Shown here: positions 38,376-45,151 of the stretch, piece after piece
How the letters are laid out: each line of letters starts with the position of its first letter
Numbering within the stretch: the stretch's first letter is position 1
Origin: Clostridia bacterium
GTDB taxonomy: Bacteria; Bacillota; Clostridia; Christensenellales; CAG-138
DNA length: 64,000 bases
Direction of reading: 5' to 3'
NCBI GenBank assembly: GCA_017614315.1
Contig: JAGACA010000006.1
Span: forward strand, 224,288-288,287
Program-made: the position numbers and the translations under genes
The notes under the pieces: model-generated
Seen by the model: the letters and a program-made list of their open reading frames with translations, nothing else
Told to the model about the DNA's origin: nothing
The model's database searches: none

Positions 38376-38452
38376 GCACCCGTAGCTCACCCGGATAGAG
38401 CGTATGCCTCCGGAGCATAAGGCAGTGAGTTCGAGTCTCGCCGGGTGCGCCA
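38376..38452 (+). tRNA. tRNA-Arg (anticodon CCG)
   Basis: Acceptor GCACCCG (38376-38382) pairs with CGGGTGC (38442-38448). The anticodon stem TATGC/GCATA holds the loop CTCCGGA with anticodon CCG at 38410-38412, reading CGG. The T loop is TTCGAGT. The CCA end is encoded at 38450-38452. Confidence 0.95.
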
Positions 38453-39381: not shown

Positions 39382-40542
39382 TCATATAAGTTTATTGAGG
39401 AACGATCTGCCGCAGGTCCAGCTTTCGCCGGTCAGATATTCATACACCGTCGCGCCGATATCGGCGAAAGAATCGAGAATGCCGAGAGAACAGGGCTTCC
39501 CCCTCCCTATCAAAGCGATCACGGGGATGTATTCCCTTGTGTGATCGGTGCCGGGATATGCGGGATCGCAGCCGTGATCCGCGGTGATTATCAGAAGATC
39601 GTCGTCGGTCATTGCGCTTATGATCTCCGGAAGCTTGCGGTCGAAATACTCGAGCGCCGCGCCGTAACCTTCGACGTCATTTCGGTGACCGTAGAGCATA
39701 TCGAAATCTACGAGATTGGTGAATATGAGATCTCCCCTGCCCTCCTTAAGGAACCGGATAGTCGATTCTATTCCGTCGTGATTGTTTTTCGTGTGATCGA
39801 CAGTAGTTATTCCTCTGTGAGCGAATATGTCTTCGATCTTTCCTATTCCCACGACGTCCATGCCCTTTTCGGTAAGGCCGTCGAGTATCGTATCGCTCAT
39901 CGGAGCGAGCGCGTAGTCCCTCCTGTTCTCGGTGCGGTAATACTCGCCGTTCCTGTCAGAGAAAGGCCTTGCGATGACCCTTCCGACGAGGTTGTCTCCA
40001 ATGAGCATAGCCCTCGCGATCTCGCAGATCGAATAGAGCTCCTCAAGCGGAATGACGCTTTCGTGCGCTGCGATCTGGAATACGCTGTCTGCGGAAGTGT
40101 AGACAATGGGCTTGCCGGTTTTCACGTGCTCGTCGCCGAGACGCTTGATTATCTCGGTACCGGAGGCGACTTCGTTTCCGAGAGTACCGCGTCCGATCTT
40201 TCTTTCAAACTCGCTTATAAGATCCTCGGGAAACCCGTTGGGATATGTTCGGAAGGGAACACTCATGGGGAACCCGGCCATTTCCCAATGTCCGCTCGTC
40301 GTATCCTTTGCCTTGGTTATCTCCTTCGCTTTGCCGTACGCTGCCCTGGGGAATCTTACGCTCGGGAGCAAAGAATTCTTAATGTTGCCGAGGCCGAGAA
40401 GAATGAGATTCGGTATCTTCATTCCTCTTTGGGCGTATATGTGCCCGAGGGTGTGTGCTCCGTTATCGCCGAATTCAGCGGCGTCCGGAAGGCAGCCTAT
40501 GCCGACGCTGTCAAGAACGATTATCGCGGCTCTTTTTTTCAT
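39382..40542 (-). CDS. deoB: Phosphopentomutase
   Basis: Interconverts ribose or deoxyribose 1- and 5-phosphate in nucleoside salvage. 386 aa of the alkaline phosphatase superfamily: metal ligands in [45 protein letters not shown] and [19 protein letters not shown]. It follows spo0A by 12 bases, an unusual neighbour, and ends at a strong terminator, so it appears to close the long minus-strand operon. Confidence 0.96.
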
Positions 40543-40554
40543 GGTGTTCCTCCG

Positions 40555-41352
40555 TTAATACTCTATGGAAAGTCTTGAGATGAATTCGGCGTTGGTAGGC
40601 TTGCCCTTGTTTTCGTCGACACTCATGCCGAAAATCTCGTGCTGATATTCTATGTCGCCTACTATCCATGCCGTTTCAATGGCGTACCTTATCGCCTTTT
40701 CCACTGCAAGCGGCGTGGTGTCGTAGTATTCCGCAATATTGCCGTACAGCTTCTTGGGCTCGGGCGCGTCCTTTATAGCTGACTGCATGGCGATCGCAGC
40801 TATGAGGTATTTGTGCCCGGCAAGCTCTTTTCTGACGCCCAGTCTGTCGAGCTTGTCCGAGATGCTGTCTCTCAAAAAACGCTCGTCGTATGAAATATCA
40901 TGCCACATCAGCTCGTTCACTATCGGCATCTGTTTTGCGATCGCGTTAAGATTGATGCCGTATTTGACGCTGATCTTATACAGCCTTAAAACGTTGAGCG
41001 AATCGGTGCGGGTGTTGCCCGTTTTGACAGTGTAATTGGTAATGATGTTTTCGTTTACGAGCCGGTCAAAGCTTTCGTTCTCACCGCACGTCAGACCTAT
41101 AGTGACCGATTGACGGTATTTGGCGAGCAAGGAGGCGTTTATCGCGATAGAAAGATTCTTGGGGTCGAGCTCCATAACGATAAGCATGGGCTCATATTCA
41201 TAGCATTTTTCGATGAGCTGCTTCTCGGTCGAAACGTATATGAACTTCATCCTGGCAAGAGCGTTGAGCTCATGATCGAAACTCCTGTAATACTCGTTTT
41301 CCTCGCCGAGGATCAGTCCGCGCTGTTCGACAATAAGCCTTGATCTTTCCAT
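40555..41352 (-). CDS. spo0A: Spo0A-type sporulation regulator with glutamate-substituted receiver
   Basis: Master regulator of sporulation, 265 aa. The C-terminal DNA-binding domain (about 145-265) is unmistakable: GNIAEYYDTTPLAVEKAIRYAIETAW and KPTNAEFISRLS. The N-terminal receiver (1-125) is recognisable but altered: the acidic pair reads EEN (E17, E18) where Spo0A has DDN, and E61 in LIVMELDP sits where the phosphorylated Asp is expected. The switch residues T88 and K110 are kept. Glutamates at these places may mimic the phosphorylated state. The ATG is one base after the spoIVB stop, with GGAGG inside spoIVB. Confidence 0.88.
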   Translation of the reverse strand: MERSRLIVEQRGLILGEENEYYRSFDHELNALARMKFIYVSTEKQLIEKCYEYEPMLIVMELDPKNLSIAINASLLAKYRQSVTIGLTCGENESFDRLVNENIITNYTVKTGNTRTDSLNVLRLYKISVKYGINLNAIAKQMPIVNELMWHDISYDERFLRDSISDKLDRLGVRKELAGHKYLIAAIAMQSAIKDAPEPKKLYGNIAEYYDTTPLAVEKAIRYAIETAWIVGDIEYQHEIFGMSVDENKGKPTNAEFISRLSIEY

Positions 41353-41353
41353 A

Positions 41354-42616
41354 CTATGATCCTCCGATCATTTTATAGATCCAATATGCGTATGCGCCGT
41401 ACCCGCGCTTGGGGTCGTTAACAAAAACGTGAGTTACAACGCCGACGAGCCTGCCGTCCTGTATTATCGGACTGCCGCTCATGCCCTGTACGATGCCTCC
41501 CGTAAGCTCGAGGAGCGCTTCATCGGTGATCTCGATCACGAGCCCCTTCGGAGCGGGTCCATACTGTTTGCCCGTCTTTACGATACGGCAGGAGTATTCC
41601 CTTATCGTCCCGTCGACGGAAGAAAGTACCGTCGCGTCGCCGACCCTGACTTCGTCGGGGAAAGCGGTCTCGATCGGATCGGCTTTAATGAGTTCGGCGG
41701 CTTCCGATGTCAATTTCCCGAATATCCCGAGCAAAGTATTCGCCTCAATGGTGCCGAGTACGAAGCTCGATCCGTCGAAGGTGCCGTGAAGCTCGCCGGG
41801 AAATCCCTGCCTGCCCCGCGTAACGCCGATCACTTGCGCAAGCACGAGCTTTCCGTCCTTGACCTTTAGGAGCGAACCCGTATCGGAATCGACGACCGCA
41901 TGACCGAGCGAAGCCGAATCACTTAAAGATGGGTCGTAGAACGAAAGCGTACCGATGCCGACCGTGCTGTCCCGCACCCAGGCGCCTATCCGGTATTCGC
42001 CGTTTTCGGCCTCGGCGGGACTGATGGCGACGGTCATCCTTTCGCCATTCCGCTCAACGGTAAGCACAGCGCGGCCGCCGCATCCGGAAAGGGCTCCTGA
42101 AAGCTCGGACGATGACGAGATCGGAACGCCGTTGACCGACAGGATGATATCCCCCGCTTCTATACCGGCTTCGGCGGCGGGAGATACCGTTTTACCGCTT
42201 AAGGAAAGGAAGCTTCCCATACCCACAACGAGTACGCCGTCCGTATATATGCTTATCCCCACCGCCTGCCCGCCGGGAACGAGCACCGCTCTGTCGGAAA
42301 CATGGGCGCGAACCCGTTTCAGCGTGATAAGTCCGAAAAGACGATAGGATACCGAAGTATCGCCGACGGACTCGTCAAACGAACTGTCGGCGGAAACGAC
42401 GGCTTTTCCGAACGAGAAACGGCCTTCGAGCTTTTCGATCAGGCTTGACTTATCCTCCGCAAATACCTCGTCGGGAATGTTTCTCAATTCGGAAAAGAAG
42501 CTTCCGAAGTTTAACGAGAGCACGGCGAAAGACAATAAGACCGCCAGCGTCTTTACAACGACCGGACGGGAACCCGCCCGCTTTAAGAAAATGTTTGCTT
42601 TCATATCCACCCGCAT
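41354..42616 (-). CDS. spoIVB: SpoIVB serine peptidase
   Basis: Forespore-secreted S55 peptidase that triggers pro-sigma-K processing. 420 aa: N-terminal membrane helix (about 22-38), PDZ domain (about 115-200, AGIEAGDIILSVNGVPI), and catalytic domain with H239 (LGHAVVD) and nucleophile S380 (VQGMSGSPIIQDG), followed by GVVTHVFVND. The recN-spoIVB-spo0A order is conserved in spore formers. ATGs at 42616 and 42604 are both possible starts. Confidence 0.93.
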   Translation of the reverse strand: MRVDMKANIFLKRAGSRPVVVKTLAVLLSFAVLSLNFGSFFSELRNIPDEVFAEDKSSLIEKLEGRFSFGKAVVSADSSFDESVGDTSVSYRLFGLITLKRVRAHVSDRAVLVPGGQAVGISIYTDGVLVVGMGSFLSLSGKTVSPAAEAGIEAGDIILSVNGVPISSSSELSGALSGCGGRAVLTVERNGERMTVAISPAEAENGEYRIGAWVRDSTVGIGTLSFYDPSLSDSASLGHAVVDSDTGSLLKVKDGKLVLAQVIGVTRGRQGFPGELHGTFDGSSFVLGTIEANTLLGIFGKLTSEAAELIKADPIETAFPDEVRVGDATVLSSVDGTIREYSCRIVKTGKQYGPAPKGLVIEITDEALLELTGGIVQGMSGSPIIQDGRLVGVVTHVFVNDPKRGYGAYAYWIYKMIGGS

Positions 42617-42663: not shown

Positions 42664-44346
42664 TCAAAAGCTTTCCTTTGACGCTTTTTCGATAAGCTCT
42701 TTCGCGTGATCGACGGCAGCGCAGCTTTCGGAGCCCGCTCCCATGATACGCGCCAGCTCATAAGGCCTTTCTTCATCATTGAGCTTACGGATGCCGGTCA
42801 ATGTTTTTCCGCCCGTTTCCTGCTTGGAAACGACGAAATGCGAGTCCGCATAAGCCGCGATCTGCGGAAGATGCGTCACGCAGAGCACCTGATGCTTTGA
42901 AGCGATATGCTTCATGCGTATACCGACAGTGTATGCCGTTGTGCCGCTGATACCCGAATCGATCTCGTCGAAAACGAGCGTCGGGATGCCGTCAGCGTCG
43001 TTGATAACCGTCTTAAGCGCGAGCATTATACGCGAAAGCTCGCCGCCGGATGCGACCTTTGAAAGCGGCTTTAACGGCTCGCCCTCGTTTGCCGAAAGGA
43101 GGAGCCTCAATTCGTCGCGCCCGTTTTCGCGGGGATCGCCCGAATAATGGCCGAACTCTGCCTCGAGCTTCGCCTTTTTCATGCCGAGCGATCGGAGCTG
43201 TTCCTCGGCAAGCGAGCAGAGCTCTTTCGCGGAAGCTCTGCGGGCCGAAGTCAGCCTCGCTGACGCTTCATCGTATTTATTGGTCAGCTCATCGCGCTTT
43301 TCGATCAGCTTCCTGCGGTGATCCGCGTCGCCTGTAAGCGAATCGAGCTCGTTCTCTGCGTTTTTTTTGAATGCGAGTATCTCGGGGATGCTGCTTCCGT
43401 ATTTATGCTTCAAAGTGTCGATGACGTCAAGCCGCGATTCGAGCTCGTCGACCCTTCTTTGATCGAATTCGAGATCGAATGACATATCGCGGACGGAATA
43501 CGCCGCGTCTTCGATCTCATAATATAGATCCGAAAGCCTTGAATGGACCTCGCCGTAGTGCGATGAAAGATCGGCGATCCTGCCTATATCGTCGACGGCC
43601 TTTTTGAGCTTTGTTACGGCTCCGCCCTCGTTGTTGAGAAGACTTGAAGCGTCGGTCAGATTCTCCGCGATCTTTTCGGCGTTGGTGAGCACGTTGAGTT
43701 CTTCCTTGATCCTGTCTTCTTCGTCTTCAGCAAGGCCGGCCTTTTCGATCTCTCCGACCTGGTATTTGAGTATGTCGATCCTCCGCTCGCGTTCGGCTTC
43801 CGATAGAAAACCGGAATTGAGCTTTTTCATGACTTCGGAATATTCGGAATAGATCGAATTTACTTCGGAAAGGATCGGACAGACCGTTTCCTCGCGGTAC
43901 CTGTCGACTACGGGAAGATGATTGGATTCGTCAAGGAGGGACTGATGCTCGTGCTGTCCGTGGATATCGCAGAGCTTATCCGTGATTCTTTTGATTGACG
44001 AAAGAGGAACGACTGTGCCGTTGACCCGCGATATGCTTTTCCCGCTTATATTGAGCTCGCGCGAAACGACCAATTCACCGCCGTCGTGATCGATCTCCAT
44101 ATCGTCGAGTGTTTCAATGATCTCGGGCAGGTCCGAAATATCGAAAAAGCCCTCGGCAAGGCATTTCTGTTTGCCGAACGAGATAAGCTCGCGGTTTCCC
44201 CTGCCGCCGAGAACTAGGTTCAGCCCATCGATTATGATCGATTTGCCCGCGCCTGTTTCGCCCGTGAGGATCGTCAAACCGCGGCCGAGCTCGATGTCGA
44301 GCCGGTCGATCAATGCGACGTTTTCGATTATCAGTCTGAAAAGCAT
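42664..44346 (-). CDS. recN: DNA repair protein RecN
   Basis: SMC-like ATPase acting early in double-strand break repair. 560 aa. Walker A ILTGETGAGKSIIIDGL, a long central coiled coil (about 160-380), signature VASGGELSRIMLALK and Walker B TLVFDEIDSGISG. One base separates it from nadK. Confidence 0.96.
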   Translation of the reverse strand: MLFRLIIENVALIDRLDIELGRGLTILTGETGAGKSIIIDGLNLVLGGRGNRELISFGKQKCLAEGFFDISDLPEIIETLDDMEIDHDGGELVVSRELNISGKSISRVNGTVVPLSSIKRITDKLCDIHGQHEHQSLLDESNHLPVVDRYREETVCPILSEVNSIYSEYSEVMKKLNSGFLSEAERERRIDILKYQVGEIEKAGLAEDEEDRIKEELNVLTNAEKIAENLTDASSLLNNEGGAVTKLKKAVDDIGRIADLSSHYGEVHSRLSDLYYEIEDAAYSVRDMSFDLEFDQRRVDELESRLDVIDTLKHKYGSSIPEILAFKKNAENELDSLTGDADHRRKLIEKRDELTNKYDEASARLTSARRASAKELCSLAEEQLRSLGMKKAKLEAEFGHYSGDPRENGRDELRLLLSANEGEPLKPLSKVASGGELSRIMLALKTVINDADGIPTLVFDEIDSGISGTTAYTVGIRMKHIASKHQVLCVTHLPQIAAYADSHFVVSKQETGGKTLTGIRKLNDEERPYELARIMGAGSESCAAVDHAKELIEKASKESF

Positions 44347-44347
44347 A

Positions 44348-45151
44348 TTATCTCAGTTTCTCTCTTATCAGTCTGAACACGTTTCTGTTGTCGAAACGAA
44401 TGAAACGTGCGGTCTTTTCGGAATGAGAGAATCTCAATTCATCGCCGGGTACGAGCACCCTTATGTCCTGCCCGTCCATACTCAGACGGCAGGTGCACTT
44501 GATGCGCACGATGATCTCGGACATGACAGATGCGACGATCGGCCTTACGGTAAGGGAGTGCGGACAGATCGGGGTCGCGAGTATACAGTCGAGTTTCGGC
44601 GCAACGACCGGACCGCCGGCCGACATGGTATAGGCGGTGGATCCGGCGGGGGTGCCGACTATAAGACCGTCTGCCATTACATTGCCGACCGTATCGCCGT
44701 CGATCTCGAGATCAAAATGCGTGATCGAAGACAGCTCCTGCCTGTGTATGACGAAATCGTTCAGACATGCGCCCATCAACTTGCCGTTCAGACGGCAGTT
44801 GAGCATGGATGCGTTTTCGACAGAGTATTCCCCGCGGGAAAGCTTGAGGAGCGCCGATTCGAAATCGTCGGATCCGATCTCGCTGAAAAAACCTATCCTG
44901 CCCATGTTTATGCCCAAAACGGGCTTATCGTACGCGGCGGCGGCGGAAGCGGCGCGGAGGATGGTCCCGTCTCCGCCGACTGAAACGATAAGGAACACGT
45001 CCTCCCAAGCCTCGTCGGATAATCCGAAAAGATCCTCGCCGCTTTTTATACAGACGCATTCAACGCCGTGCTTTGCGGCTATACCGCCCAGCTTCAGCAT
45101 GCGCTCGACGTTATCGGGCTTATTGTTGTTTGCATACAGAATGATCTTCAT
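44348..45151 (-). CDS. nadK: NAD kinase
   Basis: Makes NADP from NAD. 267 aa with the GGDGT motif (IVSVGGDGTILRAA), the NMGRIGFFSE segment, and DGLIVGTPAGSTAYTMSAGGPVV. The ATG overlaps the tlyA stop. In Bacillus and many Clostridia argR lies between this gene and recN; here it is absent. Confidence 0.96.
   Translation of the reverse strand: MKIILYANNNKPDNVERMLKLGGIAAKHGVECVCIKSGEDLFGLSDEAWEDVFLIVSVGGDGTILRAASAAAAYDKPVLGINMGRIGFFSEIGSDDFESALLKLSRGEYSVENASMLNCRLNGKLMGACLNDFVIHRQELSSITHFDLEIDGDTVGNVMADGLIVGTPAGSTAYTMSAGGPVVAPKLDCILATPICPHSLTVRPIVASVMSEIIVRIKCTCRLSMDGQDIRVLVPGDELRFSHSEKTARFIRFDNRNVFRLIREKLR

Follow-up and report, generated by a model that had tools for sequence, protein, structure and literature searches.

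According to a 2024 review (PMC11210211), all endospore formers start the process via Spo0A, which is switched on when a conserved aspartate is phosphorylated. Receivers lacking this phospho-acceptor aspartate (aspartate-less receivers, ALR/PsR) have been described as a class, and a 2015 survey of them (PMC4395418) gives Glu as the commonest residue at the acceptor position (26%), with the first acidic residue of the pocket kept in 65%, the second position acidic in 29% and a basic residue at the Lys position in 70%. In this survey it is also stated that a D-to-E exchange alone is often insufficient for activity, CheY, PhoB and Spo0A being named, and the two occurrences of Spo0A found there are this mention of mutants and its reference. 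The survey and PMC12632262 indicate that an acceptor Glu is able to stand in for the phosphoryl group, possibly through contacts with the conserved Thr and Lys, and the second source adds that in some pseudo-receivers activity was shown not to come from the Glu. Among the literature matches listed, there is no report of a natural Spo0A with Glu at the acceptor.

The window analysed here is a stretch of 64,000 nucleotides from the genome of a Clostridia bacterium (G000). A sequence-only reading of it had pointed to a gene taken for a Spo0A whose receiver aspartates were replaced by glutamate, and which might therefore act without a phosphorelay. This gene lies on the minus strand in the order nadK-recN-spoIVB-[spo0A paralog]-deoB, nadK, recN and deoB being the names that we assume for these neighbours, and it starts one base downstream of spoIVB, directly adjoining it (Table 1). 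The association with spoIVB is found in 12/12 window-type copies read in the genus, the window's own included; these were drawn from 13 genomes, the copy of G082 being left out.

Table 1. Position of the features described in the window
Feature	Position	Strand	Remarks
nadK	44348..45151	-	neighbour kept in those genus loci that extend to nadK
recN	42664..44346	-	neighbour kept in those genus loci that extend to recN
spoIVB, sporulation peptidase	41354..42616	-	TIGR02860, 374.8 bits (cut-off 305.25)
Spo0A-family paralog (window type), 265 aa, gene of the present finding	40555..41352	-	intact ORF with Spo0A_C match
Degenerate receiver-like N-terminal domain (residues 1-125)	40978..41352	-	not detectable as receiver
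Glu61 codon (GAG), acceptor position of the sequence-only reading	41170..41172	-	column not conserved in genus
Spo0A_C DNA-binding domain (residues 164-261), recognition helix altered	40570..40863	-	86.5 bits (cut-off 25)
deoB, downstream of paralog	39382..40542	-	neighbour kept in 12/12 genus loci
tRNA-Arg (CCG)	38376-38452		sole RNA gene found in window

The residues on which that reading was based (E17, E18, N19, E61, T88 and K110) are indeed present in the open reading frame. However, the assignment of E17/E18 to the acidic pair and of E61 to the acceptor position is not confirmed, as neither Pfam nor profile comparison detects a receiver in the protein; moreover, in the multiple alignment the acidic pair lies one residue away from where it had been put by eye. 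PF00072 (Response_reg) gives no match in the window protein at a Pfam threshold of E = 1. In a profile-profile comparison, its N-terminal domain (the boundary of which, at residues 1-125, was set by us) scores 14.7 against canonical Spo0A receivers, a value within the spread given by 20 shuffles (maximum 19.0); the controls of this comparison reached the canonical receivers at 99.8% in the case of the main copies defined below, and at 99.7 and 99.8% for two sets of spoIVB-linked copies from other genera. With a profile made of four diverged copies, namely the spoIVB-linked L231 of genus g4 and three copies of genus g13 situated in short loci without spoIVB, the domain does give a match, at 98.2%, where shuffles do not exceed 0.5%. 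Since the link of this intermediate profile to the canonical receivers is weak in turn (score 18.4 at 1.4%, with up to 16.4 among 20 shuffles of the profile), it is from gene position and domain order that we infer the descent of the domain from a receiver. Considered as an aspartate-less receiver (ALR/PsR), the window protein is not one that computation identifies as a receiver.

When the 12 window-type copies of the genus were brought into one multiple alignment, in which this domain is very divergent, the column aligned with the acceptor contained E6 D2 V2 I1 P1, that of the Thr T2 V4 A3 F1 I1 L1 and that of the Lys K7 I2 M1 Q1 R1. T88 and K110, said to be kept, are there as letters in the window protein; across the genus, T stands in its column in 2/12 copies and K in 7/12. 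Mean identity among these copies is 43% in the receiver region vs 72% in the DNA-binding domain. Given the drift of the column and the undetectable receiver, the view that Glu61 is a conserved phosphomimic in the window protein was rejected.

The description of the DNA-binding domain as well conserved stands as far as Spo0A_C is recognised well above its cut-off, which places the protein in the Spo0A family by domain, but it fails at the recognition helix. This reads AVEKAIRYAIE in the window protein, vs the canonical SRVERAIRHAIE, and xAVEKAIRYAIET in most window-type copies; the changes affect residues that are invariant in 29/29 canonical Spo0As, all of which carry SRVERAIRHAIEV, one A/S difference aside (canonical set n = 29, after L092 was dropped from it). 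With the spore_0_A equivalog TIGR02875 the window protein obtains 77 bits, over residues 154-259 only and below the cut-off of 200. A sequence error behind its Glu residues, which would have undone the observation, is unlikely because a protein 84% identical to it, encoded in the MAG RUI291 (L001, G086:C22), has the same three Glu; the two genes differ by a dN of 0.10 and a dS of 2.4, the latter near saturation. On sequence grounds, the window gene is under purifying selection and is to be regarded as a decayed, spoIVB-linked Spo0A paralog, constrained but degenerate, rather than as the main Spo0A of its genome; the paralog is probably functional, with a changed DNA specificity.

Other forms of Spo0A-related genes occur in the group. 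In genera g20 (L156, L157, L160) and g26 (L161), tandem Spo0A_C genes follow spoIVB, the N-terminal domain of the second gene being very divergent. The spoIVB-region copies of g22 (L147-L149, L152), g15 (L154, L155) and g14 (L162, L163) keep the acceptor Asp, but their switch Lys is replaced by Met or Leu, another way of losing the switch; those of g22 conserve both acidic residues and the Asp, with Met for Lys. In addition, ten short ORFs (L238-L247; 119-134 aa, one of 187 aa) consist essentially of Spo0A_C without receiver, and appear in genomes (G005, G016, G023, G024, G034, G036, G080, G086 and G088) in which full-length copies are also present.

The working Spo0A of the genome is most likely a second protein, L002, encoded on another contig (C5) beside a gene that we take for rimP. 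It reaches 247.5 bits with TIGR02875, over the equivalog cut-off of 200, and contains both domains (Response_reg, 69.7 bits; Spo0A_C, 136.3 bits). From the acidic pair to past the acceptor, its receiver aligns without gaps with the solved Spo0A receivers 9phz and 1dz3, presumably those of B. subtilis and G. stearothermophilus, and Glu56 (codon GAG) falls over their acceptor Asp. The acidic pair is D10-G11, the second residue being Gly, while Ser86, the Tyr and Lys108 are kept. L002 thus has neither the acceptor Asp nor an intact acidic pair and, being identified as a receiver without acceptor Asp, it qualifies as an ALR/PsR. The comparison with related genomes, which for the window gene gave a drifting column, gave for the L002 type Glu at the acceptor in 12/12 main copies of the genus, together with Ser-Tyr-Lys in 12/12, residue 11 being G8 S2 N1 A1; the thirteenth genus genome, G089, which is 61% complete, yielded no main copy. 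Between G000 and G086, the receiver of the main copy shows a dN of 0.024 with a dS of about 1.2. Consensus 0A boxes (7-mers) are present upstream of the main spo0A in 4/12 genus copies, at differing positions.

Compared with canonical Spo0A (B. subtilis, G. stearothermophilus, C. difficile), L002 has the same receiver and Spo0A_C domains, aligned ungapped through the acceptor, a recognition helix almost identical (in the L002 type, R-to-K and A-to-S are the only changes) and an equivalog score, whereas it differs in the replacement of the acceptor Asp by Glu and of the second Asp of the acidic pair by Gly. With ALR/PsR proteins such as ChxR, RitR and FrzS it shares, following PMC4395418 and PMC12632262, the acceptor Glu, the conservation of the first acidic residue, the Lys and the Y-T coupling residues, and the loss of the second acidic residue; unlike them, L002 is the master regulator of sporulation, has arisen several times and has close relatives in which the intermediate state persists. 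Aspartate-less receivers with an acceptor Glu were, then, already a described class, which the Spo0A substitutions match in their pattern. In NtrC-type phosphomimetic mutants, represented here by a title cited in PMC4395418, Glu likewise replaces the phospho-acceptor; these are, however, engineered single changes, whereas L002 is natural and its Glu is seen only where the acidic residue 11 has been lost.

The extent of this replacement was established in a survey of 178 main Spo0As (the best-scoring copy read in each genome) from 43 families and 101 genera. A main copy was read in 69/103 genomes of f1, the family of the window, in 26/29 of the f15 genomes searched, and in 87/127 genomes of a class sample besides G000 (83 of the class and 4 of the order; 4 belong to f15). 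Part of the class rows came from the head of a score list, so that they do not form a random sample. Rows were dropped for four ORFs without an upstream receiver, for G173 (masked), for L001 (a duplicate of L047) and for six f1 genomes in which the only copy read was of the window/spoIVB type. The acceptor is Glu in 42/178 main Spo0As, distributed over 12 genera and three families (f1, f2 and f15). All 42 conserve D10, Ser/Thr, Tyr and Lys, and in all of them residue 11 is non-acidic (G29 S6 H3 K2 N1 A1). The Response_reg scores of Glu copies are 57.0 bits in f2 and 41.7 bits in f15.

Where residue 11 is acidic (100 genomes), Glu at the acceptor was found in none (0/100); in the 78 genomes without an acidic residue 11, the acceptor is Glu in 42, Asp in 34, Val in one and Asn in one. 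Since 34 such genomes keep the Asp, the absence of an acidic residue 11 does not necessarily imply that phosphorylation has been lost. A Fisher test on the 2x2 table of residue 11 and Glu gives p = 1.8e-19, a value that ignores relatedness, and independent pairs on the tree are too few for significance (median p 0.5); the claim therefore rests on tree placement and invariance. The Val case is L061 (G014, genus g11), the close relative of which in G013 (L060) has Asp, both proteins lacking the second acidic residue. In f2, L104 and L105 (G106 and G140, genomes of 0.8-0.9 Mb) combine Lys11 with a Glu acceptor, and both genomes contain SpoIVA and three Spo0A_C matches each, with no SASP match.

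In a tree of 57 main copies, calculated with the three pocket columns left out, the starred branches require the Glu label to have changed at least three times, f1, f2 and f15 standing apart, albeit on an f1 backbone without resolution and with long branches meeting at f2. The f15 tree (26 rows, with a long-branch warning on those of g129) places Glu twice, in three genomes of g41 and in G244 of g130, and both origins are nested in clades that have no acidic residue 11 but do have Asp; the f15 genera g86 and g118 keep an acidic residue 11 and Asp. With both trees combined, and with Asp assumed to be ancestral since almost every outgroup carries it, the count suggests that the Glu acceptor arose at least four times. 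Judged by these trees, residue 11 was lost first in f15 and the acceptor changed second; the order in f1 is compatible with an initial loss of residue 11.

Taking into account these data, we consider it likely that the L002-type protein is an aspartate-less, phosphorylation-independent Spo0A that has evolved repeatedly, activity without phosphorylation being the deduced part of this reading. The second Asp of the acidic pair is a metal ligand needed for phosphotransfer, and the D13K exchange activates CheY without phosphate. L002-type Spo0A would not be phosphorylatable in the normal way; instead, the longer side chain of Glu may contact the conserved Ser and Lys, and this contact may hold the receiver at least partly active and competent for dimerisation. 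The likely route would be the loss of the acidic residue 11, followed by the Asp-to-Glu exchange, and the former could be the second change that Glu often needs for activity. Entry into sporulation would then be set by the amount of Spo0A, by a partner protein or by some other input, replacing His-Asp phosphotransfer. The control without a phosphorelay that had been proposed for the window gene is not supported there, where the Glu61 column drifts and no receiver is detected, but it is plausible for L002, because Glu56 lies over the acceptor and is kept in 12/12 copies with Ser, Tyr and Lys. The original observation is partly confirmed; its interpretation is partly supported, through a different gene.

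It could be argued that the main receiver is merely decaying, phosphorylation having been lost and Glu representing a neutral, conservative step towards the state of the window paralog. Such decay is visible in that paralog, residue 11 of the main copy varies within the genus, and Val and Asn have reached the acceptor in one f1 and one class genome, respectively. However, in the 36 Glu copies of f1, where 16/116 receiver columns are invariant, these include D10, Glu56, Ser, Tyr and Lys, with the Pro that follows it, and the same pair of changes arose repeatedly; the low dN of the main receiver at a dS of about 1.2 also speaks against relaxed change, and we regard decay as unlikely. The aligned acceptor column that drifts in the window paralog offers, as far as the alignments go, a natural contrast to the invariant Glu of the main copies.

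The genomes with a Glu acceptor presumably form spores. SASP genes were found in all those tested outside f2 (27/27; f1 24/24, f15 3/3), and in none of the three f2 genomes (genus g27), in two of which the main copy was read. SpoIVA was found in 22/24, 2/3 and 3/3 of the Glu genomes of f1, f15 and f2, respectively; it gave no match in G000, an assembly 90.7% complete. Over the 50 genomes tested, Glu and Asp together, SpoIVA is present in 43 and SASP in 44, both being common in Asp genomes too. In G000, SigE is above both cut-offs, SigG and SigK-type factors are each above one of two, and a divergent SigF-like factor is below its cut-off.

No copy with D10, D11, D56 and Lys exists among the Spo0A_C matches listed, every one of which was read, in 14 Glu genomes of f1 (G000, G003, G005, G023, G024, G034, G036, G079, G080, G081, G083, G086, G088 and G090; completeness 53-96%); in G016, 3/4 Spo0A copies were read. 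In f15, G115, G146, G194 and G244 have a single Spo0A_C match each. These data bear on another explanation, by which the Glu-type Spo0A would be inactive or would block DNA, sporulation being run by another copy, for instance the window paralog or a Spo0A_C protein that has no receiver. Receiver-less proteins and further paralogs do coexist with the Glu copy, but in G115, G146 and G194 the latter is the sole Spo0A_C match found, with SASP present, and its recognition helix is nearly canonical, which that of the window type is not, so this explanation appears very unlikely. Finally, it is scarcely credible that Glu61 makes the window protein itself an active, phosphomimetic Spo0A: this residue does fall at the acceptor, both by eye and in the multiple alignment, E is found there in 6/12 genus copies and the gene is under purifying selection, but the column also accepts D, V, I and P, the Thr and Lys columns drift too, no receiver is detectable, the recognition helix is altered and the same genome encodes a far better-scoring Spo0A.

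Two genomic correlates of the Glu acceptor were considered and rejected. Spo0E gave no match in 46 genomes of f1, f2 and f15, and was found only in the four genomes of other families tested alongside; its loss does not discriminate, because it is absent from Glu and Asp genomes of the family alike. HisKA kinases occur in 103/103 f1 genomes, and their range in the window's genus (3-8 per genome) overlaps that of other genera, which led to the rejection of kinase number. The five HisKA kinases that G000 still has, a point against the reading of L002 as independent of phosphorylation, include, as named by inspection, at least one hybrid and a KdpD-like protein with a response regulator next to it.

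Returning to a Spo0A that acts without phosphorylation, we lean slightly towards the broader view that several Clostridia lineages with spore genes have uncoupled Spo0A from His-Asp phosphorylation by one convergent and ordered route that leaves the remainder of the switch in place, leading to a constitutively primed Spo0A that would be set by dosage or partners. SASP-encoding genomes with Glu in their only or best Spo0A would break the rule of Asp phosphorylation as it is given in PMC11210211, and they make sporulation timing without phosphotransfer directly testable. In addition, proteins with an acidic residue 11 and Asp, with residue 11 lost and Asp, and with residue 11 lost and Glu form a natural series along which a response regulator may become independent of its kinases.
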